In this document: positions 10,082 to 63,762 of the stretch, piece after piece
Numbering within the stretch: position 1 is the stretch's first letter
Layout of the letters: every line of letters begins with the position of its first letter
Origin: Corynebacterium kutscheri
GTDB lineage: Bacteria; Actinomycetota; Actinomycetes; Mycobacteriales; Mycobacteriaceae
Reading direction: 5' to 3'
Assembly (NCBI RefSeq): GCF_000980835.1
Contig: NZ_CP011312.1
Span: 124,001-188,000 of the forward strand
DNA: 64,000 bases
Made by a program: the position numbers and the translations under genes
Notes under the pieces: generated by a model
Databases searched by the model: none
Seen by the model: the letters and a program-made list of their open reading frames with translations, nothing else
Told to the model about the DNA's origin: nothing

Positions 10082-12472
10082 ATGGCCAAGTTTTTGTACC
10101 GGTTAGGAAAATGGTCTTTCCGGGCAAAATGGGTGGTCATTGTGGCCTGGGTGCTATTACTGGCCATTTTCGGTGGGTTATCAACACTATTGCAACGTGG
10201 TTTTGTAGATACCTTTACGATGAGCGGTACTCCCTCCCAACAGGCCTTTGAGATTTATGAAAAAAACTTCCCTGAGGCAGCGAATCCGTTACAAGGTACT
10301 GGCGTTAACATTGTGTTCCAGGCACCGGAAGGGCAAAGTTTAGCTAACCCGGAAAATACGGCGGCAATTCAAAGTGTCGTCGATCGTATTAATGAGAGCC
10401 TAGGCGATCACATTACTAATACGACTCGGTGGGGAAATCCGATAACACTGAACCCTGAACTGCAAGCGATGATTATTGACCAGTTCACCTCTATGGGATT
10501 GCCAGAAGAAAATGCTCGCTTAGATGCAGAGAATCTCTCCTTGGTTTCGGCAGACAAAACCATTGCCTATACCACCTTTGATTTTGATTACCCGCTTACT
10601 GCTGATGTCACAGATGAGGATCGTCGATTAGTTAATGAAGCACTCCAAGTAGGCAGAGACGCTGGGCTAACAGTAGAAGCTAATGGCACTGGCTTTGGTG
10701 ACCCTATCATTATTGAGGAAACCTCAGAGATTATTGGTGTGGCAGTTGCCGCCATTATTTTGATTTTCACTTTTGGCTCATTGGTTGCTGCCGGTATGCC
10801 GGTGCTCACCGCAATTGTGGGTGTAGCTATTGGTTCTTTAGCTACGGTACTTGCTACCCGCTGGTTTGATATGAATACGGTCACCCCAGTGCTAGCAATC
10901 ATGCTGGGATTAGCTGTGGGTATTGACTACTCGCTCTTTATTATTTTCCGCTATCGACGTGAGCTTAAGCGGTTGAACCCGCAAGAAGCAGCCGGTATGG
11001 CGGTAGGTACCGCCGGATCAGCAGTGGTTTTCGCTGGTATTACCGTTATTGTTGCCCTAGTGGCACTAGCAGTTGCAAACATTACCTTCCTTACCTATAT
11101 GGGTATTGCGGCAGCCTTTACTGTGTTTATTGTCGTATTGATTGCGCTGACTTTGGTGCCAGCGGTACTAGGGCTATTGGGTCGGCGTATTTTCTCAGGC
11201 GAGTTAAAAGTTTTGACGCGGCGTCGAAAAGCAGAAACCGTAACTATGGGTAAGCGGTGGGTAACGTTGGTTCATCGCATGCCGGGACTAGTTATTGCAG
11301 TGGTGATTTTCGCGCTGGGGGCTTTGACAGTACCAAGTTTAGGGTTGCATTTGAGCTTGCCGACAGACACCCAATCGGACTACAGCACAACCCAACGCAA
11401 AGCAGCCGATTTGATGACTAAGGGGTTTGGTGCTGGGGTTAACGCACCGATGTTAGTAGTTGTTGATGCACATGATGTGAACCCGGACGCGGAGATTCTG
11501 CAGCCGTTGATTAGTGCACAATTAACTCAAGAAAACCCTACTGAGCAGGAAAGAAAACAGGCTGCGGTGTTTGCTTCCTATATGTATGTGATTCAGAAAT
11601 ATTCGACGAACCAGGATATGAAGCATCTTCAGCTGGTTGCGATTAGTGATGATCAGCTAGCCGTGCAGATGTTGCTTACCCCAACTTCTGCCCCGGAAGC
11701 GACATCGACCAATCAGCTTATTCTTAGCTTGCGTGAGCAACAGGTGGAAGTGGAATCGGCAACTGGTATTAATACCGGTATCACTGGTTTGGTGCCGATT
11801 CAGCAGGATATTACCAACCGTTTATCCTCAGTGATGGGTCTTTATCTGCTGATCGTGGTGGGACTAGCCATTGTTTTGCTCATGATTATTTTCCGATCAG
11901 TACTAGTACCACTGGTGGCTGGAGTGGGCTTCTTACTCTCAATTGGAGCGGCTTTTGGCGTGACCGTCTTGTTTTGGCAGGAAGGCCTATGGGGCTTGGT
12001 TCCTACCCCAGGGCCAATTATTGCCTTTATGCCAATTTTCTTGATCGGTGTGTGTTTCGGCCTGGCCATGGACTACCAGGTATTTTTAGTCTCTGCCATG
12101 CGTGAGCACTATACCCATTCCGGTGGGCAAGCAGCCAAAGGTTCAAAGTACACAGCAGTAGAAGAATCCGTTATTCACGGTTTTGCCAGCGGTGCGCGAG
12201 TAGTTACGGCTGCGGCTTTAATTATGATTGCCGTATTCGTTGCTTTTATTGGCCAGCCGATTCCTTTTATTAAGATTTTTGGCTTTGCTTTGGGTGCGGG
12301 TGTGCTTTTCGATGCTTTCTTTATCCGCATGGCATTTATGCCGGCAGCGATGTTTATTTTGGGCAATGCTACCTGGTGGATGCCACGCTGGTTAGATAAG
12401 TTGTTGCCACATCTTGATGTAGAAGGCGCCGCGCTAGAAAAAGAACGACTAGAAAAACAGAATCCTCGGTAA
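10082..12472 (+). CDS. MMPL-family RND transporter
   Basis: 796 aa. A polytopic inner-membrane exporter of the MmpL type: one N-terminal helix, a large periplasmic loop (about residues 40-210), a block of five helices, a second loop (about 430-580) and a second helix block. GLAVGIDYSLFIIFRYRRE is the first-half motif carrying the Asp-Tyr of the proton relay, and GVCFGLAMDYQVFLVSAM is its second-half counterpart, so the pump should be proton-driven. The ATG at 10082 follows GAGGAG; an upstream in-frame start at 10067 lacks one. Corynebacterial relatives export mycolate precursors or other lipids, but this copy cannot be assigned a cargo. tgt follows 12 bp later, perhaps co-transcribed. Confidence 0.9.
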   Translation: MAKFLYRLGKWSFRAKWVVIVAWVLLLAIFGGLSTLLQRGFVDTFTMSGTPSQQAFEIYEKNFPEAANPLQGTGVNIVFQAPEGQSLANPENTAAIQSVVDRINESLGDHITNTTRWGNPITLNPELQAMIIDQFTSMGLPEENARLDAENLSLVSADKTIAYTTFDFDYPLTADVTDEDRRLVNEALQVGRDAGLTVEANGTGFGDPIIIEETSEIIGVAVAAIILIFTFGSLVAAGMPVLTAIVGVAIGSLATVLATRWFDMNTVTPVLAIMLGLAVGIDYSLFIIFRYRRELKRLNPQEAAGMAVGTAGSAVVFAGITVIVALVALAVANITFLTYMGIAAAFTVFIVVLIALTLVPAVLGLLGRRIFSGELKVLTRRRKAETVTMGKRWVTLVHRMPGLVIAVVIFALGALTVPSLGLHLSLPTDTQSDYSTTQRKAADLMTKGFGAGVNAPMLVVVDAHDVNPDAEILQPLISAQLTQENPTEQERKQAAVFASYMYVIQKYSTNQDMKHLQLVAISDDQLAVQMLLTPTSAPEATSTNQLILSLREQQVEVESATGINTGITGLVPIQQDITNRLSSVMGLYLLIVVGLAIVLLMIIFRSVLVPLVAGVGFLLSIGAAFGVTVLFWQEGLWGLVPTPGPIIAFMPIFLIGVCFGLAMDYQVFLVSAMREHYTHSGGQAAKGSKYTAVEESVIHGFASGARVVTAAALIMIAVFVAFIGQPIPFIKIFGFALGAGVLFDAFFIRMAFMPAAMFILGNATWWMPRWLDKLLPHLDVEGAALEKERLEKQNPR

Positions 12473-12484
12473 GATAACCCAATC

Positions 12485-13732: not shown

Positions 13733-13745
13733 AAGGAGCCTGAGT

Positions 13746-14630: not shown

Positions 14631-14648
14631 TACCGCTAAGCACAGATA

Positions 14649-14690
14649 ACTTCACGCACTAGAAAATATCTAGTGCGTGAAGTTCTTATT
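14649..14690. terminator. Bidirectional terminator between gluQ and the convergent lipoprotein gene
   Basis: A 15-bp perfect stem, ACTTCACGCACTAGA (14649-14663) against its complement (14669-14683), with a 5-nt loop, is followed on the plus strand by TCTTATT. It sits between convergent genes and may stop transcription from both sides. Confidence 0.78.
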
Positions 14691-14718
14691 CGTTGCTCTT
14701 ATCGGTTGCTTTGTGCGC

Positions 14719-16452: not shown

Positions 16453-16540
16453 TGGTTTTCTCAATTCTTATAAAGATATGTGCTCAGGTATTGGCACATA
16501 TAGGTGGTGAGTCACAGGAGTTTTTTACTCGGTGTGGTGG

Positions 16541-18867: not shown

Positions 18868-18876
18868 TATTTTCTC

Positions 18877-25745: not shown

Positions 25746-28094
25746 GTGGCTTTATATCGTAAGTATCGTCCCGGTTCCTTTGCAGAGCTGGTCGGCCAGG
25801 AACAGGTGACTATTCCGCTGATCAACGCCCTTGATAGCGGACGGATCAATCACGCCTACCTGTTTACCGGACCTCGTGGCTGCGGTAAAACCTCCTCAGC
25901 ACGCATTATGGCGCGCTCACTCAACTGTGCGGAAGGACCAACCTCGACACCATGCGGGGTATGCCATTCCTGTATCGCCCTTGCCCCCAATGGTCCAGGC
26001 TCAATCGATGTCACTGAGCTTGATGCGGCTAGTAACCGTGGCGTAGATGATATGAATGAGCTACGCGACCGGGCAATGTATGCGCCGGCAGAATCTCGCT
26101 ATCGTATTTTTATTATCGACGAAGCCCATATGATCACCCGTGAGGGAGCCAACGCACTATTAAAAGTGGTCGAAGAGCCACCCGCGCACCTTATTTTTAT
26201 TTTCGCCACCACAGAACCGGAAAAGATTCTTCCCACCATCCGCTCCCGAGTACACAGCTACCCCTTTAGGCTACTGACTCCCCAAGCCATGACGGATCTA
26301 TTAAAACGCACAGTTGCCGGCGAGCAAGCAACTGTGTCCGAAGACGTATATCCCATGGTGGTGCGCGCCGGGGGAGGCTCCCCGCGTGATACTTTATCTC
26401 TGCTTGACCAGCTACTAGCCGGTGCAGGAGAAAGCGGGTTGGGTTATGAACAAGCACGCATGTTACTCGGGGCTACCGATGATGCGCTTATCGACGCAGC
26501 CATTGAGGCCATCGCGGCTAAAGATGTGGCAGCTTTGTTTGCGGTAGTCGATGACGTTATCGAGATGGGCTTAGACCCACGCCGCTTTGCCAGCGACCTA
26601 CTAGAACGCATCCGCGATCTTATGATTTTGCATAGTGTTCCAGACGCACTAGAAATAGGACTGGTCGACGCACCCACCGATCGAGGCGAAATACTAAGCG
26701 CACAAGCACAGAGTTTTTCTTCCGGGGAACTACCGCGTATTGGCACACTGCTCAGCGAAGACATTGCCACCTTACGAGGCGCAACAAGCCCGCGACTGCT
26801 GCTAGAGATCTTATGCGCCAAGATGATTATCACCCCGCTTCCGGAAGCGACTTTTGTTACGCAGGACACAAACACCTCAGCGGCGATGCCCGCTGTAACA
26901 TCTGCTAGCTCAGCTGCTGCATCAAAGAGCGCTAGCACAAGCACAGATAAACCGGTGGTGCGCTATGAACGGAAATCGCAACGTCTAGCTAGAGAGCGTG
27001 CGGAAAAAGAGGCACAAGCAGCACAGTCAACAGAACAAGAGGCGCAACCTCAATCACCGCCAGCATTGTCGCAGGCTAAGCCAGAACAAGCGAATAAAGA
27101 ACAACAACCACAACCGGCTGTAACCAAGCCACAACCGACACCAGAGGTTGTTTCTGAACCAGAAGTAGCCCAACCGACTATCCAGGATGTACAGGCGAAG
27201 TGGACGACGGTAAAAGAAATCGTCGAAAAGCAAAGTGCAGTCATGGCGGCGTTGCTAGCGGGTGCTTCAGTGCTCGGGATAAAAGACGAAGAGTTGATCA
27301 TTGGGCACAACACTGGTGCCTTGGTCGAGCGATTAAATGCAGAGAATAACCGGAAGATATTAGCTCAGGTTTTAGGTGATGAGGTTGGTTTGACACTAGC
27401 CCTGCGGTTTGTGATCAATACTGATCCGGCTGCCCACGGTTTTGCTGTAGATGAAGCACCACAAGTATGGCAGCCAGAAGCTGAGCTAGACGCTGAATTA
27501 GAAGCAATAGCCCAGCCAACAACGAAAGACGAACCAGCTGTTAATACCAAGCCAGCAGTAGCAGTAGAACCAGTTGCAGCGGAACCCGAACCAGAACCGG
27601 TTGCAGAAAAACCTGCTGCTGATCCTTGGGGCGAACCTGCTCCTATCGGTCAGTCGGTGGCACAGTCGACGCCCTTGCGTACGAAACCACCACAATACAG
27701 TGCCCCAGAGCCTGAGCTCGCATCACCTGAGCCAGAAGTTTCTCGCCCACGCTGGCAAGAGGCCGCTGAACGAGGACGCGCGCATATGGCAGAACTTGCT
27801 GCGCGCCCGCAATTTTCCGATGGAGTTCCGCTGCCTCCGGAGCCAGAAGATGACAACGAACCCCCCATGGTTGACCCCTATGGTTACGATGCCGATGAAG
27901 GTATCCCAGAGACAACATCTCAGCCAGCAACACCTCAGCCGACAGATGTGGTAGCTACGCAGGTAGCTAGTCAGCAGGAGGAAGAAGAAATGATGGCCGC
28001 CGCTGCTGCAGAACCGGGCACGATGGATCATCGAGACGCGATGACTGTGGCGATGGACATGCTTGCGGCAGAACTCGGCGCTAAGCGAATCTAA
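25746..28094 (+). CDS. dnaX: DNA polymerase III subunit gamma/tau
   Basis: 782 aa. The clamp-loader ATPase of the replisome. Walker A is GPRGCGKTSSAR, the zinc module is CAEGPTSTPCGVCHSC, Walker B is IFIIDEAHM, and sensor 1 is IFATTEPEK. After about residue 370 the sequence becomes a long Pro/Gln/Glu/Ala-rich linker (the tau-specific region), with a short conserved block around VKEIVEKQSAVMAALLAG. The start is GTG 25746 (MALYRKYRPGSFAELVG). ybaB and recR follow in the classic dnaX-ybaB-recR order. Confidence 0.95.
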   Translation: MALYRKYRPGSFAELVGQEQVTIPLINALDSGRINHAYLFTGPRGCGKTSSARIMARSLNCAEGPTSTPCGVCHSCIALAPNGPGSIDVTELDAASNRGVDDMNELRDRAMYAPAESRYRIFIIDEAHMITREGANALLKVVEEPPAHLIFIFATTEPEKILPTIRSRVHSYPFRLLTPQAMTDLLKRTVAGEQATVSEDVYPMVVRAGGGSPRDTLSLLDQLLAGAGESGLGYEQARMLLGATDDALIDAAIEAIAAKDVAALFAVVDDVIEMGLDPRRFASDLLERIRDLMILHSVPDALEIGLVDAPTDRGEILSAQAQSFSSGELPRIGTLLSEDIATLRGATSPRLLLEILCAKMIITPLPEATFVTQDTNTSAAMPAVTSASSAAASKSASTSTDKPVVRYERKSQRLARERAEKEAQAAQSTEQEAQPQSPPALSQAKPEQANKEQQPQPAVTKPQPTPEVVSEPEVAQPTIQDVQAKWTTVKEIVEKQSAVMAALLAGASVLGIKDEELIIGHNTGALVERLNAENNRKILAQVLGDEVGLTLALRFVINTDPAAHGFAVDEAPQVWQPEAELDAELEAIAQPTTKDEPAVNTKPAVAVEPVAAEPEPEPVAEKPAADPWGEPAPIGQSVAQSTPLRTKPPQYSAPEPELASPEPEVSRPRWQEAAERGRAHMAELAARPQFSDGVPLPPEPEDDNEPPMVDPYGYDADEGIPETTSQPATPQPTDVVATQVASQQEEEEMMAAAAAEPGTMDHRDAMTVAMDMLAAELGAKRI
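26837..26848. repeat. Palindromic double copy of the GCTTCCGG word
   Basis: GCTTCCGGAAGC within dnaX: two overlapping copies of an octamer found about 48 times in the window. The other palindromic copies are at 36895, 54345 and 63101. Confidence 0.8.
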
Positions 28095-52078: not shown

Positions 52079-55048
52079 TTATTTCTCCTTTCCGGACTCG
52101 GTGATGTGTTGGTTGCTGTCGTCGATAAGCATGGCACTGGCCTTGCGGGCTTTGTTACGTAATTTTTGGTCTGTGTACTCAGAACAGGAACCACGGGGAT
52201 TAGAGAAATCGTCGAGATGGCCAACCTTAGGCAGTGAAGCAAGTGGAGAATCCTGCCGGTTATAGTTGAGATCGGCGTAATCCATACCAGGACGTAGATA
52301 GCCGCCGAGTGCATTAATCGCCATGGATACCATGCCCAACACCGCCAAATAGACACCAACATCGAAGATCATGGATGTAGTCCAGTGTTGACCAGCCCAA
52401 TGTCCGTGGATGGCGTACATAAAAGAACCATGCAGCAAACCAAGTAAACCGGCACTCACAGCAGTTAAGATACCCACACCGGTGAGATAGATGGGTAAGC
52501 GAACCGGAAAAATCTGCTTGTCGCGTGGTTGCGAACAATAGCTCAGCATCATCGCTGCCGCAGCAACCAGGGCAGCGATAAAACCGCCACCGGGGGAATT
52601 ATGGCCGCGCCAGAAGATCATCACCGAGAGCATAATAAGGATCGGGGTGAGGAATTTCAGCAACGTGCGCAACGGAATGGAATTAAGCGTGGCCTGGTCA
52701 AAAGGTGCTGGATGGGTACCAGGGGCAAAAGGATAACGTGGCATGGACGTAATAACTGCCGCAATTGCGATCGCTGCCATACCTAATACGGAGAGCTCAC
52801 CTAAGGTATCGAAACCACGGAACTCCACCAAAATAGTATTAACGACGTTATCGCCACCAGAAATCTCTGGAGCCTGCTGGAGATACCACAAAGCTAGCTC
52901 GCTGCGCTGGTGACGCGAGAGCAAAACCCACACCGCAAGGAAAGTAAATACCCCCACGCCTACACCAAGAGCAATGCCCAAGGCGTGTTGGGAACGACGT
53001 GGCCGGTGGAAATTCTTTGGTTGCTGGCGAACCACCATCATCATAATGACCACGACTAAGGCTTCCACCATGAATTGTGTAAGAGCAACATCTGGGGCAC
53101 CTAATAAAAGCACCTGCAAGGTCACGCCTACCCCAACCGCGCCGATATAAACCACCGCCGTGAGCCGACGCCTAGTGCGCACCACACCAATAGTCGCAAT
53201 GGTAATAATGGCCAGCGGCACAAGGTCTGTCCAACGATCGGTTGCTAGCCGTGGGCTTAACGCTACTGAGTCAATACCGCCATGAATAAGACCAGGGACA
53301 AGATAGAAGCAACCAAAAATAATTAACAGCAAGAACATGGCGGCCAAATGCCTGGTAGGGGCAACCGAATCCGCCATCTTTCCTAGATAAGCGCCTATCG
53401 ACGAAAGCCCCTGATTGATGTTTCTTAGCGCAGTATTACCACTTATTGGCGCCAACTTCTTACCGCTAAGCGCAGCCCAAATCCGGTGGCGCACCACCAC
53501 CCCTAGCGTGCCAAGAACCAATACCGCCACCGAGATCATAAAGGGCACGCTGAGACCATGCCAGAGGCCAAGGTGGGAATGCGGATTAGTGGAAATAGTA
53601 CTAACGGCTGCGTTGATGGGATCGTCGAAAAGCGAAAGAAACGCCACAATGGGCACCGACATCATACCGGGAAGCGCAGCTGGCAACCATAGGCGCAGTT
53701 TTGCTTCCTTGACTTCACTCATATCACGCTCACCGTCGATAAAACCATCGAAGACAATGCGAGCAGAATAAGTAAAAGTAAAAAGCGCGCCAATGCCAGC
53801 AGAAAGCAGCAATAAAACCACTCCAGCACTAGACAACGGTGCCTCAGTGAACGCTTCCAACAGGGATTCTTTAGAGATAAAACCAAACAATGGCGGCACG
53901 GCAGCCATAGAAGCAGCAGCAATCACCACAGAAGCAAAAGTAAACGGTAGTTGACGCCAAGAACTACCTAACCGAGTCACCTCACGAGTACCAGTTTGAT
54001 GGTCAACAACACCAATAAGCATAAACAAACTGGACTTAAACAAGGCGTGGGCAAGCGTATGCGTTAAAGCAGCAGCCAGTGCCACCGGAGTACCCACGCC
54101 AATAGTAGCCACAATCCAGCCCAAATGTGAGACCGTAGAATACGCCGTAAGCTTTTTTAAATCGGTCTTTTGGATAGCAAAGAAAGCCGCCATCACAGCA
54201 GTGAACATGCCGATAACAATCAGCAGTAGATTCCACGTACGCACATCATGAAAAACCGCGCTAAAACGCAGCAAAACATAAATACCCGCCTTGACCACAG
54301 CTGCCGCGTGCAAGAACGCTGACACAGGAGTAGCAGCCGCCATCGCTTCCGGAAGCCAAAAATGAAATGGCAACTGCGCAGACTTGGTAAACGCAGCTAC
54401 CGCGATCAACACGGCAAGCGTGGCAGTTAATGTGGGCTGCTGCGCCCAGAAATCAGCCGCCAAAATCCCAGAAATACTGGTTGTCCCAGCGTGTGCAGAA
54501 GCAACTGCTAAAGCCACCAGTAAAGACAACCCACCAATAAAAGTAAGGATCAAGGTGCGCTGCGAGCCTTGCTCACCACCTTTGCCACCCGAGCGAGCAA
54601 TCAGCATAAAGGACGCGAGTGATACCAGCTCCCAAGCGATAAACAACACGAAGGCGTCATCGGCAAAAACCAACAGCAAAATTGAGGCCATAAACGCCGT
54701 CATAAGGGTATAAAAGCTGGTGGTGCCATGTTTTTTAGGCAAATATGCTGCCGAATAAACAAACACAACTGCGCCAATGCACAGTGCGAGCAATGCGAAG
54801 AAAATACTTAAAGCATCTGCACGCAGGGCAAAATTAATGTCGACACCGGCGCCCAGCACATCGGGAATCCAGGTAACGCGGTAGGTTAGCGCGGTACCGT
54901 CAGGGGGCAGATCCCGGAAGAGAACTCCGGCAGTGATAAGGAAAATAGCAGCTAGCAGCCAGCCTGCTAATCGATCACAGATCCGGACCAACAAGGGTGC
55001 GCTGGCCAGCGCAAGGACAGCTAGCACAATGACATAGAGTAAGGTCAC
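52079..55048 (-). CDS. mnhA: Mrp antiporter subunit MnhA fused with MnhB
   Basis: 989 aa. The N-terminal 500 residues are the NuoL-like antiporter (DDAFVLFIAWELVSLASFMLI, FTKSAQLPFHFWLPEAMAAA). The next part is the MrpA C-terminal/DUF4040 region (LLGAPDVALTQFMVEALVVV, FRGFDTLGELSVLGMAAIA). The final 150 residues are an MnhB domain (FWRGHNSPGGGFIAALVAA), so no separate mnhB is needed. A polar tail of about 60 residues ends it. The open frame begins 42 codons earlier; GTG 55048 has AGGTG upstream and starts straight into the first helix. It heads a six-gene operon for Na+/K+-proton exchange and pH homeostasis. Confidence 0.93.
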   Translation of the reverse strand: MTLLYVIVLAVLALASAPLLVRICDRLAGWLLAAIFLITAGVLFRDLPPDGTALTYRVTWIPDVLGAGVDINFALRADALSIFFALLALCIGAVVFVYSAAYLPKKHGTTSFYTLMTAFMASILLLVFADDAFVLFIAWELVSLASFMLIARSGGKGGEQGSQRTLILTFIGGLSLLVALAVASAHAGTTSISGILAADFWAQQPTLTATLAVLIAVAAFTKSAQLPFHFWLPEAMAAATPVSAFLHAAAVVKAGIYVLLRFSAVFHDVRTWNLLLIVIGMFTAVMAAFFAIQKTDLKKLTAYSTVSHLGWIVATIGVGTPVALAAALTHTLAHALFKSSLFMLIGVVDHQTGTREVTRLGSSWRQLPFTFASVVIAAASMAAVPPLFGFISKESLLEAFTEAPLSSAGVVLLLLSAGIGALFTFTYSARIVFDGFIDGERDMSEVKEAKLRLWLPAALPGMMSVPIVAFLSLFDDPINAAVSTISTNPHSHLGLWHGLSVPFMISVAVLVLGTLGVVVRHRIWAALSGKKLAPISGNTALRNINQGLSSIGAYLGKMADSVAPTRHLAAMFLLLIIFGCFYLVPGLIHGGIDSVALSPRLATDRWTDLVPLAIITIATIGVVRTRRRLTAVVYIGAVGVGVTLQVLLLGAPDVALTQFMVEALVVVIMMMVVRQQPKNFHRPRRSQHALGIALGVGVGVFTFLAVWVLLSRHQRSELALWYLQQAPEISGGDNVVNTILVEFRGFDTLGELSVLGMAAIAIAAVITSMPRYPFAPGTHPAPFDQATLNSIPLRTLLKFLTPILIMLSVMIFWRGHNSPGGGFIAALVAAAAMMLSYCSQPRDKQIFPVRLPIYLTGVGILTAVSAGLLGLLHGSFMYAIHGHWAGQHWTTSMIFDVGVYLAVLGMVSMAINALGGYLRPGMDYADLNYNRQDSPLASLPKVGHLDDFSNPRGSCSEYTDQKLRNKARKASAMLIDDSNQHITESGKEK
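54345..54356. repeat. Palindromic double copy of the GCTTCCGG word
   Basis: GCTTCCGGAAGC inside mnhA. See the finding on the iterated word. Confidence 0.8.
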
Positions 55049-55237
55049 AGAGTCTTCACACCTATTAAAATTCTTCACTCCCGTCACTCCCCGGAAAGAG
55101 ACAGACAAAGAGGTTGGTTGGATAAAAACTTTCGATGGGCAATAGTGAACCTGTCTTACTCTATCAGCAAGCAAAACTGCATGACCATCGGTGCGCCTGT
55201 GACAAAAGGGAACGTAAGAGCGTTAGTGTGAAGCACT

Positions 55238-56581
55238 ATGAATGCTCGTCGCATCGTCGCCGCTACCTTGCTTAGCGCTCCATTGCTTTTTGGTGCTGCC
55301 TACTTTGCTGGCCACGACCTATCCGAAACATGGAACGCACAGGAAGCCACCGCCGCACCCACCGCAATCGACGATGCCCAGCTTGTCGACGCACGTCGTG
55401 CCACTGGTGAAGCAACGACTCAATCTGGTTTTCTTGTCGACGGTATCAGCCAGCTTGTCGACGGCACCAACCAACTTACATCCGGCGCAAACGAACTAGG
55501 AGCAGGCGCACTGAGCGCACGAGACGGCGCTCGCCAGCTTGCCGACGGACTTATCCAATTACAAGCCGGCACCGGACAACTTGGCGATGGTGCTACCGAG
55601 ATTGCCAACGGTATTGACACTGCGGTGAGCCAGCTTGTGGGGTTAGAAGCCGTGCGCGGACAGATCCTGACCGCCATTAATCAAGTGCGTGCCGAGATCG
55701 CCGGAGCTACCGATAAAGACACCGTCGAATTCCGTGAACAACTTGATGGCTTTAGCCAACAGGTAGAAAATTTTCACTTTGACCCGGCCACGATTACCGA
55801 GTTAGAACGACTACGCACCGGAAGCCGCGAATTAGCCAATCAGCTTGATGTCGCTGGCTATGGCTACCACGACGGCATCTACACCGCCACCAAAGGCGCG
55901 CAAGAACTCGCTTCCGGGCTAGATGAACTCGCGGGCGGGGTAGATGCGGCCATTGCCGGAGTCACCCAGCTAGATACCGGTGCGCAGCGGCTGAATACGA
56001 TGGCACATAACAATAAGGAGAAGATCGCTGGGATTCAACGGGCGCTTCCGGGAGCGCAAGCTGGTACCCCGGAAGCGACTGTTACACGCACTCTCGCCCC
56101 GCTTTATGCTTTCCTTATTGCTGCCGGAGTAATGCTCGGTGTGCTTGGCCGTCGTGGGCGAGTGGTGATACTTGTTAGCTTGTGTCTTGCTGCTATGACC
56201 GGTTTTTTGGCGGCGCTGATTGGTATCGGCGTTGGTGTTGGCGTAGCTAGTGCAATCGCTGGGGTAGGGCTTTTGCTCGCTGTGGTCACGGCGCTTGGCA
56301 CTGAGGCGGCAGTGCGCGTTCTCGGACAAAAGTCGCTTCCGGGGGTGGTTGTGGCGGCTATCGCACAGGTGGCCGTTATTGGTTGGGTGTGGACGCGTGC
56401 AGCAACACAGAGCGTTGATACGCTGTGGCAGGTACTAGCAGGGCTATTACCCTTGAATTATGCCACTACCGCGATAACAACACTTGGCAACGGTGGCTCG
56501 ATGGCCATGCTCTGGCTAGCGATTGGCGTGTTAGGTGCATTAGGTGCGGTGTCAGCGGGAGTAGTGCTGCGAGTTAGATAG
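55238..56581 (+). CDS. Membrane protein with xxxLxxG heptad repeats (YhgE/Pip-like)
   Basis: 447 aa. One N-terminal helix is followed by an external domain of Leu/Gly heptads (ISQLVDGTNQLTSGANELGA and similar, about residues 65-130 and 220-250), then six C-terminal helices. This is the layout of YhgE/Pip (phage-infection protein) relatives common in mycolate-containing actinobacteria. The external coiled part probably spans into the cell wall. The function is not established. Monocistronic, divergent from mnhA. Confidence 0.8.
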   Translation: MNARRIVAATLLSAPLLFGAAYFAGHDLSETWNAQEATAAPTAIDDAQLVDARRATGEATTQSGFLVDGISQLVDGTNQLTSGANELGAGALSARDGARQLADGLIQLQAGTGQLGDGATEIANGIDTAVSQLVGLEAVRGQILTAINQVRAEIAGATDKDTVEFREQLDGFSQQVENFHFDPATITELERLRTGSRELANQLDVAGYGYHDGIYTATKGAQELASGLDELAGGVDAAIAGVTQLDTGAQRLNTMAHNNKEKIAGIQRALPGAQAGTPEATVTRTLAPLYAFLIAAGVMLGVLGRRGRVVILVSLCLAAMTGFLAALIGIGVGVGVASAIAGVGLLLAVVTALGTEAAVRVLGQKSLPGVVVAAIAQVAVIGWVWTRAATQSVDTLWQVLAGLLPLNYATTAITTLGNGGSMAMLWLAIGVLGALGAVSAGVVLRVR

Positions 56582-56671
56582 ACGCGAGGATTGTGCGTCG
56601 AAAAGCTCTTTTGAGGCAAGTAAAAAGCGAGCCTGATCGCTGCGCTAAAAGGCAGAATCTAGACTCGCTTA

Positions 56672-56748
56672 TGGTCGGGATAACAGGATTTGAACCTGCG
56701 ACCCCCTCGTCCCGAACGAGGTGCGCTACCAAGCTGCGCCATATCCCG
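56672..56748 (-). tRNA. tRNA-Pro, anticodon CGG
   Basis: 77 nt including an encoded CCA. Acceptor CGGGATA pairs with TATCCCG, the discriminator is A, anticodon stem CCTCG/CGAGG encloses TTCGGGA (anticodon CGG), and the T-loop is GTTCAAATC. Unlike the two tRNA-Ser genes, the CCA is encoded. Confidence 0.97.
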
Positions 56749-56828
56749 TGGTCGTAAATTGAACTTACTCCTCAGCGAAAGCTGGCGCAAAAAAGCAGCT
56801 AACTAGCTAGTGTTTTGCCAGCGTTAAG

Positions 56829-57701
56829 CTAGCGACGCTCGGTAACACGCACCAGAGTTGCAGACGGCCGACAAAACAGACGCACCGGGGCGAACTTGGA
56901 CTGGCCGAGGCCGTTGGAAACATGCATGGCCATGCCGTCGAAGGTATGCAACCCGGAAGCGCGTTTAGGATCAATTCCACAGTTGGTCACGATCGCTCTT
57001 TCTCCCGGAAGCGCGATTTGGCCGCCGTGAGTGTGCCCGGAAAAGGAAATGTCGTAGCCGTCGGCAGCAAAACGACGCAGCACGCGCGGTTCAGGAGAAT
57101 GCGACAAAGCAATAGCTAAATCCGCTTCCGGGTTGGGAGGACCTGCGATCTGGTCGTAATCGTCGAGATCATGATGCGGATCGTCCACCCCGGCGGCTGC
57201 AATTTTAATGCCAGCAGTGAACTCATGTCGTGCTTGATTAGCATCAAGCCAGCCGTGTTCAATAAAAGCCGCTCGCATGCCCTGCCAGGGAAGATCAATC
57301 TGTGACGGCGTACGTTTCTTTCCGGTAAGGTAGATCAGCGGGTTGACCATCCGCGGCGCCCAGTAGTCGTTGGTACCAAAACAAAACAGTCCAGGGCGGC
57401 GCAGTAGCGGGTTAAGCGCTTGTAATACATAAGGGACGGCTTTTTCGTCGGAAAGATTATCGCCGGTGTTAATCACTAGATCTGGGTTTAATTTATCCAG
57501 TTCGGCGACCCATTGTTGCTTTGCGGTCTGGTTGGGGATCATATGCAGATCCGAAATATGCAAAATGTTAAAGCTTTCTTTAGCGCGTAGTGTACCTTTT
57601 GCCAGTAGTGGCACACTGACTTCCTTTAACCGGAAGCGAGTGGTCTCATAGACCGCGTAGGCGGTAGTAGCGGCGGTAACCCCTAGGGCAGTTTTGAACA
57701 T
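56829..57701 (-). CDS. Metallophosphoesterase
   Basis: 290 aa. A calcineurin-like phosphoesterase anchored by an N-terminal hydrophobic stretch (ALGVTAATTAYAVYETT). Metal ligands are visible in order: NILHISDLHMIPNQ (D-x-H), VINTGDNLSD (G-D), CFGTNDYWAP (in place of GNHD), IALSHSPEP and ISFSGHTHGGQI. The GNHD motif reads GTNDYW here, a common variant in this subfamily. The frame extends 70 codons further, but ATG 57701 has GGAGG upstream. The substrate is unknown. Confidence 0.9.
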   Translation of the reverse strand: MFKTALGVTAATTAYAVYETTRFRLKEVSVPLLAKGTLRAKESFNILHISDLHMIPNQTAKQQWVAELDKLNPDLVINTGDNLSDEKAVPYVLQALNPLLRRPGLFCFGTNDYWAPRMVNPLIYLTGKKRTPSQIDLPWQGMRAAFIEHGWLDANQARHEFTAGIKIAAAGVDDPHHDLDDYDQIAGPPNPEADLAIALSHSPEPRVLRRFAADGYDISFSGHTHGGQIALPGERAIVTNCGIDPKRASGLHTFDGMAMHVSNGLGQSKFAPVRLFCRPSATLVRVTERR

Positions 57702-57735
57702 CGACACCTCCATAACCCTAGTACACTCCAACTTT

Positions 57736-58179
57736 ATGACCTTAAAAGCAACCATCCGTGAAGATATGACCGCTGCTATGAAAGCACGCGATAAACAACG
57801 TACCGGCGCCTTGCGCATGCTGCTCGCAGCCATCCAGCAGGAAGAAACCAATGGTACAAAACATGATGTCGATGACGCCACAACACTGAAAATCATTGCC
57901 CGTGAGATCAAAAAGCGTCGTGAATCCGCTGAGCTCTACGCTGCAAATGGTCGCCAAGAGCTTGCCGACGCAGAACTTTTCGAAGCCAGCGTCTTCGAGA
58001 CCTACCAGCCCGCTCAGCTTGATGACGACAGCCTCAACACACTGGTTGCAGAGGTGATCGCCGCCATACCAGGCGAGGCCACGATGGGCCAGGTGATGAA
58101 GCTAGCCCAAGAAAAAGCTTCCGGAAGAGTTGACGGAAAACGCCTATCGACGGCCGTGCGCGCAGCCCTGGGCAACTAA
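57736..58179 (+). CDS. GatB/YqeY domain-containing protein
   Basis: 147 aa. YqeY family: LKATIREDMTAAMKARDKQ, LRMLLAAIQQEE, IIAREIKKRRESAELYAANG and the C-terminal GQVMKLAQEKASGRVDGKRL are standard segments, similar to the tail domain of GatB. A role in tRNA-dependent amidation is suspected but unproven. The start ATG 57736 is chosen over one 14 codons upstream inside the divergent phosphoesterase gene. Its stop overlaps the stop of the convergent pbp1A gene by 4 bp. Confidence 0.88.
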   Translation: MTLKATIREDMTAAMKARDKQRTGALRMLLAAIQQEETNGTKHDVDDATTLKIIAREIKKRRESAELYAANGRQELADAELFEASVFETYQPAQLDDDSLNTLVAEVIAAIPGEATMGQVMKLAQEKASGRVDGKRLSTAVRAALGN

Positions 58180-60530
58180 CGCCCGCCGAGCAACTGCTGA
58201 AGCAAGCTTTCGATATTGTCTTGGATATCGTTAGCTTGCGGCTCAGGTCGAGTAACCTCTCGTGGTGTGGGGCGTGTGGTCGTGCCATCAGAGACATAAA
58301 CAGTTACCGTCGAACCCCGGCGAAGTGGCAGCGTGGCTTCGACACGCACCACATCGTCGCGGGCAATTCCGTTTCCGGGAGCTAATTGAGTTAATACTGA
58401 ATACCCCTGTTCCTCAAGCTCTCTGCGCACATCCGCAATTGGTCGACCAGCGTAGCGAGAACTCAAGCTAGCGCCTGCGCCCTGATCAAAACTCAAATCA
58501 TATCCCGGAAGCGCTCCTTGGGCTGCGCCGAGACGAGAAGCAGCAGCGAACCAGGTTCGCGCAGGCTCATTGCCACCAAACATGGTGCCGGAGCCGCATT
58601 GACGAGCTGGGCCAGTACACAGTGGTGAATTAGAGGTGCCGTCGTTATAGATGTAAGTTGCGGCTGCAAAATTGTCATTCAGGCCTAAAAAGGCAGAAGA
58701 ATAGTGAGACTCGGTGGTGCCAGTTTTGGCGGCTAATGGTGAGTTCCAACCATAGGCGCGAGCCGCATCGGTAGCGGTTCCCTTGATCGAGTCGTCGCTC
58801 ATGCCGTTAACTAGCGCATCAGCAATTTCGCCACTGAGGGCTTGCTCGCAGGCCGGGCGTTCGATATAAATCTCGTTTCCGGAAGCATCAGTGACCTTAT
58901 CGACGGGATTTGGCTCACACCACACGCCCCCGGAAGCGAGTGTCGCTGCGACATTGGATAATTCCAGAGCATTGACCGCTGTTGGGCCAAGAGTATAGGA
59001 ACCTAAGTTGTGGTCCTTGACATAGTTGGCAATGGAGCTGGTGCCGTCGAAAGTTCCTTCCTGTGCGTAACTACGTAGTCCCATTTTCACAGAAAGATCC
59101 ACCACAGGCTCTACGCCTACTCGCTCAATAAGCTGCACAAAAGTAGTGTTGGGAGAGTATGCGAGAGCGTCACGTAGCGTCATTTGTGGTGCGTAGGAAC
59201 CCGAATTTTCCACGCAATAGGTGTTTGCAGGACAGTTGGCGGCTCCGCCCTCACCGAGTCCCACAGCCTCGTAACGCGCCGGCACGTTAAGCATGGTGTT
59301 CAGGCCATATCCCTGTTCAAGGGCTACAGCAGCGGTGAAAATCTTGAAAATCGAGCCTGCACCATTACCAACTAACGACGATGCTTGTGGGAAGACGGTT
59401 TCGCCGGCTTCAAGATCAAGCCCGTAGCTACGCGAAGAAGTCATCGCCAAAATGTTTCGGGAGTCCTTTCCAGGAGCGATAATATTCATGACTTCGGCTA
59501 CACCGTTGGTTTGTCCGTTTACCTGTCCGGAAGCGGCTTCATGCGCAACGGCCTGAATTTCTGGATCCAAAGTGGTTTTAATCGTGTAGCTGCCACGGGT
59601 GAGCTGGTCGGTGCTTAGGCCTTTTTCGTCGAGGTAGCGCAGAACATAGTCGCAGAAAAACCCACTGTCCCCGGAAGCGATACAGCCGTTGGCTAAGTTA
59701 GTTGGGGTTTCGAGAACACCGAGAGGCTCTAGTGAGAAACTTGCTGCCGCTTCCGGGGCGAGAACACCGGCGTCCACCATTGCTTGTAGCACTGTGTTGC
59801 GTCGCTCGGTGACCCCTTCCGGGTTGGTGTACGGGTTTAGATACGACGACGACTGCACAATACCGGCCAGCATTGCTGATTGTGGCACATTGAGTTCAGC
59901 TGCCGGGATACCAAAATAAGTTTGTGCAGCTGCTTCGATACCGTAGGCGTTATTGCCAAAGGGGATGAGATTGAGGTAGCGGGTAAGGATTTCGTCTTTG
60001 CTAAGTTGCGCGTCGATAGCACTGGCCATGCGCATTTCGCGTAGCTTACGTGGGATCGAGGTCTCGGTGGCGGCAGTCTGTTCGTCTTCGGTTGCCGATG
60101 CCACCAGTAGGAGATAGTTTTTTACATACTGCTGGTCAATTGTCGAGGCACCCTGTTCGACCCCGCCGGCTAATAAGTTGGTGGCAATTGCGCGTAAATT
60201 GCCTTGGATATCTACGCCGTTGTGCTCATAGAAACGTCGATCCTCGATCGCGACAATGGCATCTTTGATGGTCTGGGAGATTTGTTCACTAGTTATTTCG
60301 TAACGACGCTGTGTGTATAACCATGCGATGGGCGTGTCGTTTTTATCCGTGATGGTAGTTACTCCCGGTGTTTGGGCAACGGTGAGATCTTCCAAATTCG
60401 ATTGCATAGTGTCGTTGGTTCGTTCCACGGCGACGGCAGAAATAGCTGCCACAGGTGCGGTTGCAATGGCACCGGCTACGCCAATAGCGGCAGTAGCGGC
60501 AACGAGCTTAGTTAAAGAATTCCAGACGGT
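58176..60530 (-). CDS. pbp1A: Class A penicillin-binding protein 1A with PASTA domain
   Basis: 784 aa from GTG 60530. A bifunctional peptidoglycan synthase: an N-terminal membrane helix, glycosyltransferase domain (AIEDRRFYEHNGVDIQG with the catalytic Glu, GASTIDQQYVKN), then transpeptidase with SIFK (Ser nucleophile), SPN and KTGT motifs. A C-terminal PASTA domain (IADVRRELEEQGYSVL) may sense muropeptides. The locus next to whcA matches C. glutamicum pbp1a. The frame continues 33 codons upstream, but that part has no ribosome-binding site. Confidence 0.93.
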   Translation of the reverse strand, partial: TVWNSLTKLVAATAAIGVAGAIATAPVAAISAVAVERTNDTMQSNLEDLTVAQTPGVTTITDKNDTPIAWLYTQRRYEITSEQISQTIKDAIVAIEDRRFYEHNGVDIQGNLRAIATNLLAGGVEQGASTIDQQYVKNYLLLVASATEDEQTAATETSIPRKLREMRMASAIDAQLSKDEILTRYLNLIPFGNNAYGIEAAAQTYFGIPAAELNVPQSAMLAGIVQSSSYLNPYTNPEGVTERRNTVLQAMVDAGVLAPEAAASFSLEPLGVLETPTNLANGCIASGDSGFFCDYVLRYLDEKGLSTDQLTRGSYTIKTTLDPEIQAVAHEAASGQVNGQTNGVAEVMNIIAPGKDSRNILAMTSSRSYGLDLEAGETVFPQASSLVGNGAGSIFKIFTAAVALEQGYGLNTMLNVPARYEAVGLGEGGAANCPANTYCVENSGSYAPQMTLRDALAYSPNTTFVQLIERVGVEPVVDLSVKMGLRSYAQEGTFDGTSSIANYVKDHNLGSYTLGPTAVNALELSNVAATLASGGVWCEPNPVDKVTDASGNEIYIERPACEQALSGEIADALVNGMSDDSIKGTATDAARAYGWNSPLAAKTGTTESHYSSAFLGLNDNFAAATYIYNDGTSNSPLCTGPARQCGSGTMFGGNEPARTWFAAASRLGAAQGALPGYDLSFDQGAGASLSSRYAGRPIADVRRELEEQGYSVLTQLAPGNGIARDDVVRVEATLPLRRGSTVTVYVSDGTTTRPTPREVTRPEPQANDIQDNIESLLQQLLGGR

Positions 60531-60613
60531 CACCTCATTTACCCTACTTGGCTTTGCGACGAAGGGGGAATGGGGTAAACCCCCACAAAGTGTGATGCAT
60601 TCGACTAGACGGG

Positions 60614-60639
60614 GCATTTGTGAATACACTTACAAATGC
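60614..60639. promoter_or_regulatory. Palindrome with GlxR-like core between pbp1A and whcA
   Basis: GCATTTGT-N10-ACAAATGC, perfect 8-bp arms. Inside it TGTGAATACACTTACA (60619-60634) resembles the GlxR/CRP consensus TGTGANNTANNTCACA. It sits in the divergent 166-bp gap, 58 bp before the whcA ATG, so it could control both genes. Confidence 0.45.
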
Positions 60640-60696
60640 GTAAAGCTTTATTCGGCCGCGACCTTCTATCAACTAGCGAAACATAGGAGAAAATCC

Positions 60697-61035
60697 ATGA
60701 CCACAACAATTGCTAACGAGACTCAGCACAGCCCGTACGTATCGTTGGCGTCTTCGGTTGAATGTGGTGATTGGGTTAGTCAAGCAAACTGTCGCCATGG
60801 TGATCCAGATGCACTTTTTGTTAAAGGTGCGGCACAACGTCGTGCTGCAATGATTTGCCGCCAGTGTCCAGTGCTCAACCAATGCCGCGCCGATGCATTA
60901 GATAACAAGGTTGAATTCGGTGTCTGGGGAGGACTTACCGAACGCCAGCGTCGAGCCATTTTGCGTAACAACCCACACATTAAAAGTTGGGCAGACTACA
61001 TAGAAAATGGTGGAGAAATCTACAACCTTCTCTAG
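60697..61035 (+). CDS. whcA: WhiB-family iron-sulfur regulator (WhcA-type)
   Basis: 112 aa. Four Cys bind a [4Fe-4S] cluster (Cys32, Cys54, Cys57, Cys63, with C-x2-C-x5-C), followed by the WhiB turn GVWGG (75-79) and basic LTERQRRAILRN. The position beside pbp1A identifies it with corynebacterial whcA (WhiB4 type), reported as a negative regulator of oxidative stress genes. AGGAGA precedes ATG 60697; a long upstream open frame is a shadow of pbp1A. Confidence 0.9.
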   Translation: MTTTIANETQHSPYVSLASSVECGDWVSQANCRHGDPDALFVKGAAQRRAAMICRQCPVLNQCRADALDNKVEFGVWGGLTERQRRAILRNNPHIKSWADYIENGGEIYNLL

Positions 61036-61057
61036 ACAGTGACGTATCCTTATTTCC

Positions 61058-61213
61058 ATGACTAAATGGGAATATGCAACTGTGCCTTTAATCACTCATG
61101 CCACTAAACAAATTCTCGACTCCTGGGGTGAAGACGGCTGGGAACTTGTTAGCGTCGTCCCCGGCCCTAACCCAGAAAACGTGGTGGCTTATCTCAAGCG
61201 TGAGGTGCAGTAA
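61058..61213 (+). CDS. DUF4177 small protein
   Basis: 51 aa: MTKWEYATVPLITHATKQIL, then DSWGEDGWELVSVVPGP and VVAYLKREVQ. The W-E-Y and DGWELVSV elements are the DUF4177 signature, conserved next to RidA in corynebacteria. It begins 22 bp after whcA and its TAA directly abuts the ATG of the RidA gene, so it is part of an operon. Function unknown. Confidence 0.82.
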   Translation: MTKWEYATVPLITHATKQILDSWGEDGWELVSVVPGPNPENVVAYLKREVQ

Positions 61214-61669
61214 ATGCGCCCATCGGAAAGACTTCGCGAACTAGGCATTGAGCTGCCTACAGTAGCCGCTCCCGTGGCCGCATACGTTCCGGCAATCAAA
61301 ACTGGAAACCAGGTGTGGACATCTGGGCAGCTTCCGTTTGTTGACGGCGTGCTTCCTGCTACCGGAAAGCTAGGTGTTGATGTCTCCCCGGAAGCGGGTC
61401 AAAATTATGCGCGTCAGGCTGCGTTAAACGCGCTAGCTGCAATTGATGCGCTGGTTGGGATCGATAATGTTGCTCGGGTGCTTAAAGTTGTTGGATTCGT
61501 CGCTTCCGGGGAAGGCTTTGGTGGCCAACCGGCAGTGATTAATGGTGCATCTAACCTTATGGCGGAAGTATTCGGCGCTTCCGGGGAACATGCACGTTCT
61601 GCTGTGGGGGTAGCCGAGCTTCCACTCAATGCGCCAGTAGAAGTCGAGGTTATCGTCGAGCTTCGCTAA
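61214..61669 (+). CDS. RidA/YjgF-family protein
   Basis: 151 aa. Usually an imine/enamine deaminase that removes reactive PLP-enzyme by-products. VWTSGQLPFVDGVLPATGKLG and QNYARQAALNALAAIDA match the YjgF fold; the C-terminal VGVAELPLNAPVEVEVIVEL is standard. In canonical RidA an Arg in the R-x-A-x-x-V motif binds substrate; here ARSAVGVAELP keeps it. It abuts the DUF4177 gene and precedes the MBL gene by 10 bp. Confidence 0.9.
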   Translation: MRPSERLRELGIELPTVAAPVAAYVPAIKTGNQVWTSGQLPFVDGVLPATGKLGVDVSPEAGQNYARQAALNALAAIDALVGIDNVARVLKVVGFVASGEGFGGQPAVINGASNLMAEVFGASGEHARSAVGVAELPLNAPVEVEVIVELR

Positions 61670-61679
61670 GCTAACTGCT

Positions 61680-62495
61680 ATGGAGCATCCTGCTTATAGC
61701 CTACTGCGTCCAGTTACCCCCTCTGTTGGCGTCGTATTGTGCCCGAATCCTGGGTATGCGTCATTGGAGGGGACTAATTCGTGGGTGGTGCGCGCCCCAG
61801 AGGACTCACATAGTATCGTGATTGATCCAGGCCCGGACGATGAGGGGCATCTTAATGTTCTGAATGCTAAAGCACACGAGGTCGGCCTGATTCTTCTTAC
61901 TCATCGCCACCATGATCATGCTGACGGGGCACCTCGCTTCCGTCAGCTTACTGGTGCACCTGTTGCTGCTTTTGATCCTTCCTACTGTATTGCCACCCCG
62001 GAAGCGCTTTTCGACGGCCAGATCATCACTGTTGATGGGGTCACTCCGCAGCTTGAAGTCGTGCATACTCCAGGGCATACGGCAGATTCAGTGTGTCTTT
62101 TTGTGTGGTCGGGTAGTCCGCATGAATCCACTCTGGAAGGGATTATTACCGGTGATACGATTGCTGGTCGGCATACGACTATGATCTCGGAAACTGACGG
62201 TAATTTAGGTGATTATTTGCATACGCTTGAATTGTTGGAGAAACGTGGCAAAAACGTAAAGTTGCTTCCGGGGCATGGGCCCGACGGCGAGGACGTTTCA
62301 AGTTACGCGCGGTGGTATATCCGTCGGCGTCAGCAACGTCTTGATCAGATTCGTGCGGCACAGCAAAAGTTTGGTCAGGACATGCCGCTAAAACAGCTTA
62401 TCGACGAAATATATGACGATGTCGATCCTGTGCTTCGTGGCGCTGCGGAACAGTCTACTCGGGTAGCATTGCGCTATTTAGCGCAACAGCAGTAA
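61680..62495 (+). CDS. Metallo-beta-lactamase-fold hydrolase (LACTB2-like)
   Basis: 271 aa. The metal motif is THRHHDHADG (HxHxDH), followed by VVHTPGHTADS, IITGDTIAG and LLPGHGPDG, which complete the MBL dinuclear site. The C-terminal helical extension (RWYIRRRQQRLDQI) resembles LACTB2/RNase Z-side relatives. It is co-oriented with RidA, 10 bp apart. The substrate is unknown; in C. glutamicum a similar gene lies beside glxR. Confidence 0.9.
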   Translation: MEHPAYSLLRPVTPSVGVVLCPNPGYASLEGTNSWVVRAPEDSHSIVIDPGPDDEGHLNVLNAKAHEVGLILLTHRHHDHADGAPRFRQLTGAPVAAFDPSYCIATPEALFDGQIITVDGVTPQLEVVHTPGHTADSVCLFVWSGSPHESTLEGIITGDTIAGRHTTMISETDGNLGDYLHTLELLEKRGKNVKLLPGHGPDGEDVSSYARWYIRRRQQRLDQIRAAQQKFGQDMPLKQLIDEIYDDVDPVLRGAAEQSTRVALRYLAQQQ

Positions 62496-62496
62496 C

Positions 62497-63762
62497 TTAC
62501 GCGGCTGCATATACTGGATGCGCGATACTGTCGGCGTAGAGTTTGACTAATTCTCCGGCAGAAAGTCGGCGAACTGGCATGTGGTTGACGCGTGCTTTTC
62601 CGGAAGAGAAGTATACCCATTCCAATTCGCCTTGATTGTTGCGTTGGATACGGGCGCGTTTTGTGGTGCATTCACGGTGGTGGCGCGGGCATAACATGGC
62701 GAGATTCTCTATGGTAGTTGCCCCGCCTTGGGAAAAATCAACAATATGATGTCCTTGCCCGAAGCGCGCTTGTTCGGTGCAGTCTGGGTGGGCGCACAGG
62801 ATTTGGTGTGCGGATGCCATGGCGATGTGTTTGGTATTGAACCAGCGTCGCTCGATTCGTACCGCGACCTCGGGTTGTAGCGTTAGATCGTCGTAGACCA
62901 CTGCCCAGCCATGATTGCTGAGTTTGTCGTCGATACGCTCGTAGATTGTGCGCCCATCAGTTAGGCTAAAAGCCTTGCGCTCAGTACCGTTAAAGAGCTC
63001 ACTGGCGAACATAATCGCGCAGGGCTCAAGTCCTTTTTGACGCAGGGTGTTGTTGTCTGAGCAGGTGCAAATATTTGTGCAATTGCATTTATTCGGAGTC
63101 GCTTCCGGAAGCGGGGTCATGCCCTCGCGCAGCATCTTGAGGATAACATCTCCACGGATGTGGCTGTCGGTGCGCCCGCTTCGATGGGTTTGTTGTGCTT
63201 TGACTTGGACATTTATGTATTCAGCGATATCGGAAAATTGCTTTTCGACGAAGCGTGCGGTCAGATATCGGTTTCCTTCCCCATCGACAGCAGAAAGATT
63301 TGCTCGCGTCGTTGGGTGAAAAGAGCTGCTTTTATTGAGCTGACGTGTGCGGTCTTTAGCCTGTGCATTAAGTTCAGTCCAGCTAAGACGTTTTGCTTGC
63401 GTAACTAGCTCTAGAAACAGTTGGGTGCGGGTTGTGGTGACGTCGGTACGCAGTTGTTTGACGTATTTGAAAATTGTACATAGCTTATCCACGCTTAATT
63501 CATCACGTTGTGCAATATCGCGGATTTTTATTAATCGTTCCAAATCGGCACGGTATTCTTCCCGTTCTGCTTCCGAGGCAGTTTTCTTCGGTGTAGTAGG
63601 ACTAAATAAAAATTTACCTAATCTCTGCCAGTCGCGAATAACCTTCGGCGGACTACCAAAACGCATTGACAGCTCGTCGGCGGAGTTTTTGCTGGTATGA
63701 ACAGCCACGATAAGTGCGATACCCAGACGGGAAACAGAAGTAAGAAGTTCGAAAATATTCAT
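62497..63762 (-). CDS. DUF222/HNH endonuclease-domain protein
   Basis: 421 aa. An N-terminal DUF222-type helical region is followed by a C-terminal HNH motif with zinc-type Cys: CAHPDCTEQARFGQGHHIVD, then TTIENLAMLCPRHHREC. This family is abundant in corynebacteria and mycobacteria and its role is unclear; many lie near mobile elements. A Cys-rich insert CNCTNICTCSDN at mid-length is unusual. The end is tail-to-tail with the MBL gene (1 bp gap). The start MNIFELLTSVSRL at 63762 has no strong Shine-Dalgarno. Confidence 0.85.
   Translation of the reverse strand: MNIFELLTSVSRLGIALIVAVHTSKNSADELSMRFGSPPKVIRDWQRLGKFLFSPTTPKKTASEAEREEYRADLERLIKIRDIAQRDELSVDKLCTIFKYVKQLRTDVTTTRTQLFLELVTQAKRLSWTELNAQAKDRTRQLNKSSSFHPTTRANLSAVDGEGNRYLTARFVEKQFSDIAEYINVQVKAQQTHRSGRTDSHIRGDVILKMLREGMTPLPEATPNKCNCTNICTCSDNNTLRQKGLEPCAIMFASELFNGTERKAFSLTDGRTIYERIDDKLSNHGWAVVYDDLTLQPEVAVRIERRWFNTKHIAMASAHQILCAHPDCTEQARFGQGHHIVDFSQGGATTIENLAMLCPRHHRECTTKRARIQRNNQGELEWVYFSSGKARVNHMPVRRLSAGELVKLYADSIAHPVYAAA
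63101..63112. repeat. Palindromic double copy of the GCTTCCGG word
   Basis: GCTTCCGGAAGC inside the HNH gene. See the finding on the iterated word. Confidence 0.8.

Follow-up and report, generated by a model that had tools for sequence, protein, structure and literature searches.

Short DNA words concentrated around HNH-family genes in Corynebacterium kutscheri and two other Corynebacterium species

Introduction

The octamer GCTTCCGG occurs 48 times in a stretch of 64,000 nucleotides, referred to here as the window, of the chromosome of Corynebacterium kutscheri, a species associated with rodents. An initial annotation, made from the letters of the window alone, likened the octamer to the uptake sequences of Haemophilus or the HIP1 word of cyanobacteria and also proposed a Chi-like signal, a segregation or methylation signal and restriction avoidance. 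The question raised by this locus is why one short word should be so frequent here and which protein, if any, reads it.

Results

The octamer in the window

A direct count gave 23 copies of GCTTCCGG on the plus strand and 25 on the minus strand between positions 11693 and 63112, with 25 of the 48 lying within the 8.8 kb from 54345 to 63112. This reproduces exactly the tally of the initial annotation and its four full palindromes, GCTTCCGGAAGC, at 26837-26848, 36895-36906, 54345-54356 and 63101-63112. The last of these (matches at 63101 on the plus strand and 63105 on the minus strand) is located inside the HNH-family gene described below, which itself contains two copies of the octamer. Dinucleotide shuffles of the window (n=100) contained a mean of 2.1 copies and at most 7, in agreement with the two copies that had been expected by chance, and an order-3 Markov model predicts 5.3. 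With an order-6 model, the maximal order, 43.9 copies are expected, and the octamer itself is not exceptional because its excess already sits in its 7-mers, of which CCGGAAG (70 copies) and CGCTTCC (44 copies) carry it.

As had been claimed, the sites are mostly coding: called ORFs hold 73 of the 76 sites between 140 and 215 kb of the genome. Both strands and all six frames are used, as also stated, with frame counts that are unequal (25, 20 and 18 versus 5, 3 and 2). Synonymous-codon shuffles within 60 genes (n=40) left a mean of 9.4 words and at most 15, compared with 73 observed; therefore, protein sequence and codon usage together do not explain the words, and codon usage is ruled out as their cause, as the initial annotation had argued. 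Longer repeats or MITEs as carriers are also ruled out, since there is little conservation past about 12 bp. The 173 sites between 150 and 213 kb of the genome give a logo of approximately C-G-C-T-T-C-C-G-G-R-R-n-n-G. In the PBP1A gene, the 21 word codons fall at residues shared less with 30 orthologs (0.38 versus 0.60), a comparison from which gap-rich columns were absent in both sets and which is uninformative for such columns. Variants that narrowly miss the word at a tolerant position are over-represented and none is clearly depleted, with small expected counts, which speaks against the proposed restriction avoidance.

Regional distribution in the genome

The C. kutscheri genome (one contig of 2,354,065 bp) contains 208 copies of GCTTCCGG, compared with 42 of the reversed-word control, and 75 of the 208 fall between 140 and 220 kb. 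The successive 20-kb stretches from 140 to 240 kb contain 8, 16, 40, 11 and 5 copies, and stretches more than 60 kb from the cluster contain about 1.1 on average. Smoothed with a kernel, the density of CTTCCGG climbs from 0.40 per kb at 130 kb to a value of 2.84 at 190 kb, then drops to 0.30 at 216 kb; the GCTTCCGG cluster extends past the window to approximately 213 kb of the genome. This regional distribution does not support the proposal that GCTTCCGG is a genome-wide, uptake- or HIP1-like word. The dnaA gene is located at the start of the contig.

The cross-genus comparison that had been suggested indicates that the word is peculiar to this species. CGCTTCCGGG occurs 55 times in C. kutscheri and its reversed control not at all, and the other 241 genus genomes contain at most 36 copies (control 22), most of them near their own control. 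A few of them have a small excess, e.g. G080 with 20 versus 1.

The HNH-family gene at the centre

The fitted centre of the GCTTCCGG cluster is 185.5 kb (95% interval 181.5-189.5 kb). Pfam analysis of ten ORFs at the peak identified a gene for an HNH-nuclease-family protein of 421 amino acids on the minus strand at 62497-63762 of the window, or 186497-187762 of the genome (PF01844, E 8e-7). No methylase was found among these ten ORFs. The density of GCTTCCGG is 2.25, 2.67 and 1.70 per kb at 0-2, 2-5 and 5-10 kb from this gene, 0.70, 0.43 and 0.15 per kb at 10-20, 20-40 and 40-80 kb, and 0.04 per kb beyond 320 kb.

The HNH motif region, placed by the Pfam match, spans residues 328-363 (62674-62781, minus strand), and its Cys and His residues are invariant across seven paralogs. 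Codons 1-150 (63313-63762, minus strand) are predicted by the structure model to form a helical domain with a helix-turn-helix-like stretch. In structural comparison this modelled domain bears a possible resemblance to the DNA-binding domains of ParB and Noc, with Noc, ParB, Spo0J and KorB entries taking most of the top VIA-align rows. The model of the whole protein is mediocre (pLDDT 65.6), and its best Foldseek match, to EcoKMcrA, is weak (E 0.09). Pfam detected no ParB CTPase domain in the protein (E up to 0.001, HNH being the only match) and no ParB domain in the six paralogs (E up to 1). With PADLOC and PHROGs, matches were confined to the HNH part, and a PDB sequence match to a helix-turn-helix repeat protein was rejected because it rests on five insignificant repeats. 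A homolog search with the protein returned only itself, and a seven-paralog profile returned five proteins.

Other regional words and the HNH paralogs of C. kutscheri

A blind comparison of each 20-kb stretch with the rest covered 80 stretches, 1.6 Mb in total. The regional words identified were GCTTCCGG, the weaker ACCGCATA at 220-240 kb, CTAGGGCAATTT at 410-470 kb with a minor peak at 280-300 kb, and CTCTATGT at 1085-1105 kb. A further word set at 885-905 kb was taken for a CRISPR array because of its repeats. A genome search with PF01844 then gave eight places, at 186.7, 448.4, 531.6, 1101.1, 1158.7 and 1959.7 kb, at 229.7 kb (below the cut-off) and at 962.9 kb. Thus, all four of the word clusters found blind contain an HNH gene, which was recognised only afterwards. 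The match at 962.9 kb is a 135-aa frame of phage-borne appearance. The first seven places represent a single paralogous family, with 17-30% identity to the first paralog and 47-60% among the paralogs at 531, 1101 and 1158 kb.

Synonymous shuffles left 2.6 copies of CTAGGGCA where 39 were observed and 1.6 of CTCTATG where 15 were observed; 31 of 70 CTAGGGCA and 8 of 23 CTCTATG lie outside called ORFs. The third word, CCTAGGGCAA, occurs 91 times in C. kutscheri (control 0) and no more than nine times in any other of the 241 genus genomes. Ordering 81 stretches of C. kutscheri by their best local word placed the seven that hold an HNH gene at ranks 1, 3, 4, 5, 9, 11 and 28; ranks 2, 6, 7 and 8 were flanks of the same HNH genes and rank 10 was a CRISPR-like array. 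The 531-kb paralog, whose stretch was absent from the blind scan, was tested fresh at 525-540 kb and gave CTACAGCGAA, with TACAGCGAA in 9 bins versus 0.07 and CGCTGTAG in 12 versus 0.31. The small-background scan used there is too liberal, in that a non-HNH stretch reached 3e-12.

Association of words with HNH genes

A uniform test was used that combines the background with the in-stretch Markov expectation at a cut-off of p<1e-6. It was passed by 8 of 18 HNH stretches, 4 of 24 flanking stretches and 1 of 107 others (Fisher 3e-7), the sole other stretch being a tandem-repeat gene. Two stretches counted as having no HNH gene (G009 at 410 kb and G019 at 700 kb) carry a distant one; neither passed, and relabelling them gives 8 of 20 versus 1 of 105. 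Among 14 neighbourhoods (seven in C. kutscheri, four in genome G026 and three in genome G007), eight had p<1e-6 and two more had 1.5e-6 and 1.6e-6. A word was found at all three HNH stretches of G007, a genome that corresponds to C. pelargi judging by where its PBP1A gene lies, and at two of the four in G026, one of these at 1.5e-6. The G026 genome has 16 copies of CCCTAATANG and 26 of its reversed control; ten of the 16 copies are found at 1041.3-1049.0 kb, a concentration that encloses the HNH gene at 1046.7-1047.7 kb. Of the 15 AGTTAGG sites in G007, 8 fall between genes, some of them forming inverted pairs; the third word of this genome belongs to a longer palindrome.

For six words, density peaks within 5-10 kb of the HNH gene and then declines outward. 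Across ten clusters, the gene overlaps the 95% interval of the fitted centre in seven; the centre is within 0.5 kb of the gene in one (G026-1046) and 1.1-1.4 kb off in two of C. kutscheri (229 and 531 kb), and fitted decay scales run from 1 to 40 kb. The words are graded like a binding logo, and seven of the ten genes examined contain words themselves. Strand counts to the left and right of the centre are unbiased in nine clusters (Fisher p 0.18-1) and give p 0.045 in one, which favours neither the Chi-like signal that had been proposed nor a KOPS-like one.

Related proteins tend to have related words. The closest pair in C. kutscheri (1101 and 1158, 60% identical) has CTCTATGT and CCATAGAC, and the closest in G026 (1046 and 3234, 56% identical) has CCCTAATA and CCCCAATA. 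With words exactly as output by the scan, these two closest pairs also rank first and second in word similarity (permutation p 0.0015); p is 0.003 with the closest pair per species and 0.017 for the five closest pairs. In the closest pair of G007, word similarity is no better than average, the words again being as output by the scan.

Several HNH loci lack a word. The uniform test found none for the 1959-kb paralog or for G026-2010 and G026-490, and the words at 1158 and 229 kb are weak by it. Twelve loci with distant HNH relatives lack a word peculiar to them; where the top word there is strong, it is the genus-wide one described below. For the second CTAGGGCA peak, at 280-300 kb, tblastn of the stretches searched returned no HNH gene. 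A comparison with 60 stretches of G008, G019 and G009 yielded repeat arrays between genes and a tandem-repeat gene and no dispersed word. Because of the word-less HNH loci, the claim is limited: the link between word and HNH gene holds for an HNH subfamily, not for every HNH gene.

A genus-wide word

By its counts, GCTTWTCGACG, not GCTTCCGG, is the Corynebacterium word of the HIP1 or uptake kind. It occurs 495 times in C. kutscheri versus 8 for its reversed form; of 41 genus genomes, 29 (C. kutscheri included) have 50 copies or more and the remaining 12 have 1-14. Its density is 0.86 per kb within 2 kb of HNH genes versus 0.37 past 80 kb (GC-corrected p 2e-6).

Discussion

These results suggest that HNH-type genes tag their own chromosomal neighbourhood, each with its own word. 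That GCTTCCGG is the recognition word of the neighbouring HNH-family protein is, we infer, very probable; before the fold result it was already rated probable, and that result raised the odds both of recognition and of the main rival discussed below. The N-terminal ParB/Noc-like domain would read GCTTCCGG, which would have accumulated by substitutions around the HNH gene of the window, and a parallel build-up, with a different word each time, would have taken place at several HNH paralogs of C. kutscheri and of two further species.

For the cause of the build-up, we put forward the hypothesis of a self-linked transmission drive, which, given recognition, has about an even chance of being correct. 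DNA that carries the nuclease gene together with nearby words would be passed on or integrated more often; one possible route is that nicking or cutting of donor DNA at the word yields recombinogenic ends. The advantage would then go to words close enough to share a recombination tract with the gene, and not to distant ones. Under such a drive, density would decay with distance because of the linkage of gene and words, and the generic word would also be denser near HNH genes because transfer is raised there. In our judgement, biased transmission of gene and words together is the proposal that would fit the observations best. Taken as a whole, the account of a word read by the HNH protein and built up around its gene by such a drive is the best explanation, at roughly equal odds of being right or wrong.

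The main rival is a functional binding array, in which the protein mainly binds in a manner similar to ParB-parS or Noc and coats the region around the gene that encodes it, in the service of silencing, segregation, pairing or autoregulation, the cell having been selected for many sites. The modelled N-terminal domain, the centring of sites on the protein's own gene, the graded logo and the lack of orientation are consistent with it. However, there are several such proteins per genome (3-21 matches in each of 24 genomes), each with another word and peculiar to its species; an obvious benefit to the organism is lacking, as is a ParB CTPase domain by Pfam. We regard this array as possible, with the balance against it. 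The words might instead form a local antidote, the nuclease being harmless or parked when bound to a word and nearby words being selected as a protective sponge. The fall of density with distance and the words inside the gene would agree with this, but it gives no reason to expect a raised density of the genus-wide word near HNH genes, and we know of no toxicity of this nuclease; we consider it unlikely.

Two further explanations are very improbable. The regions could be foreign DNA, imported from donors in which the words are common genome-wide, as the somewhat higher GC content of the cluster (0.513 at 180-200 kb) might suggest; yet density declines smoothly with no edges, the region holds ordinary core genes, and the 241 other genus genomes have at most 36 copies of the first word and nine of the third. 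The idea of a Corynebacterium donor sharing the word was therefore rejected. It is just as doubtful that a neighbouring regulator reads the word. A CRP-family gene (domains at L018:7965-8648) lies 0.2 kb from the HNH gene, but the common factor of the clusters is the HNH family, word similarity tracks HNH protein similarity, and the GlxR motif differs from the word.

A more tentative reading, less likely than not, is a new kind of selfish locus: a nuclease with a ParB-like reader would have its own word, and this word would spread outward from the gene over evolutionary time and serve as an address label for the neighbourhood. Genome-wide words such as GCTTWTCGACG, and perhaps HIP1 and uptake sequences, could be the end state of such a process. 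A search of the open-access literature turned up no description of words clustered about nuclease genes; for Corynebacterium, PMC5217627 describes CRISPR motifs. If the proposal is true, such genes would form a selfish or self-marking system built on words, dispensing with both insertion site and methylase and visible from sequence alone, and the specificity of an orphan nuclease could be read from its genomic surroundings. The origin of genome-wide DNA words would become testable because related genes show different cluster widths (1 to 40 kb).

Comparison with known systems

In contrast to restriction-modification, the site is enriched instead of avoided and the ten peak ORFs include no methylase, and in contrast to Chi and KOPS the word clusters have no strand orientation in nine of ten. 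The uptake sequences of Haemophilus and Neisseria and HIP1 are likewise short, on both strands, mostly coding and far above chance, but they are genome-wide, whereas GCTTCCGG sits around one gene. Homing endonucleases of the HNH type share the self-serving appearance of the gene, its species-peculiar occurrence and its variable number; the allele that carries a homing enzyme lacks the site which that enzyme cuts, whereas here the word, if it is the target, is enriched around and inside the gene. The DUF222/13E12-type HNH proteins of actinobacteria are reached by the seven-paralog profile, which finds proteins with PF02720 (which we take to be DUF222) and PF01844; the C. kutscheri proteins themselves have no Pfam match to PF02720, and the distant members have no word. 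The chromosome-specific pairing-centre motifs of C. elegans are also short words confined to particular regions, each matched to its own protein within one family, but they belong to a eukaryote and to zinc-finger proteins and are not centred on the protein's gene. The ParB-parS and Noc-NBS arrays also have several sites grouped around the gene of the reader, and the N-terminal domain of the HNH protein is modelled like their DNA-binding domain. In the present case, however, an HNH nuclease domain replaces the ParB CTPase domain, and each genome has several paralogs with differing words and about 100 degenerate intragenic sites.

Iterated and regional words

GCTTWTCGACG is a true iterated word of the whole C. 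kutscheri genome, in which 495 copies were counted versus 8 for the reversed control. Sites on the + strand of the window include positions 12517, 17325, 24793, 26486, 62006, 62396 and 63240. The word is present in at least 50 copies in 29 of 41 genomes of the genus, and its density is approximately twofold higher close to HNH genes.

The word of the HNH gene at 448 kb, CTAGGGCA, has a second, smaller peak in genome positions 280001-300000 (L023). A tblastn search of this stretch for an HNH gene found none, and the peak is perhaps the trace of an HNH gene that has since been lost.

Repeats of other stretches were also noted. In the uniform local-word test, the sole non-HNH stretch to score was L225 (G009, 1850001-1870000), which holds a long gene with very many short, near-identical repeats. 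GC-rich 10-mers, each in approximately 10 copies, are repeated in L139 (C. kutscheri, 885001-905000) and look like a CRISPR array. In L175 (G008, 600001-620000), CGCACCCA occurs in arrays of closely grouped repeats, which is a regional repeat of another kind.

Gene neighborhood and intergenic words

The HNH gene of the window is directly adjoined by a CRP-family regulator gene (L018:7965-8648, genome 187965-188648), which we take to be GlxR-like. Farther along lies a T2SSE-type ATPase gene (L018:16592-17710) that resembles those of Tad pilus loci. In G007 (L244, L245), the words of two HNH genes are also present in intergenic DNA, arranged as inverted pairs or as a longer palindrome. Uptake words show this arrangement in the terminators of Haemophilus.
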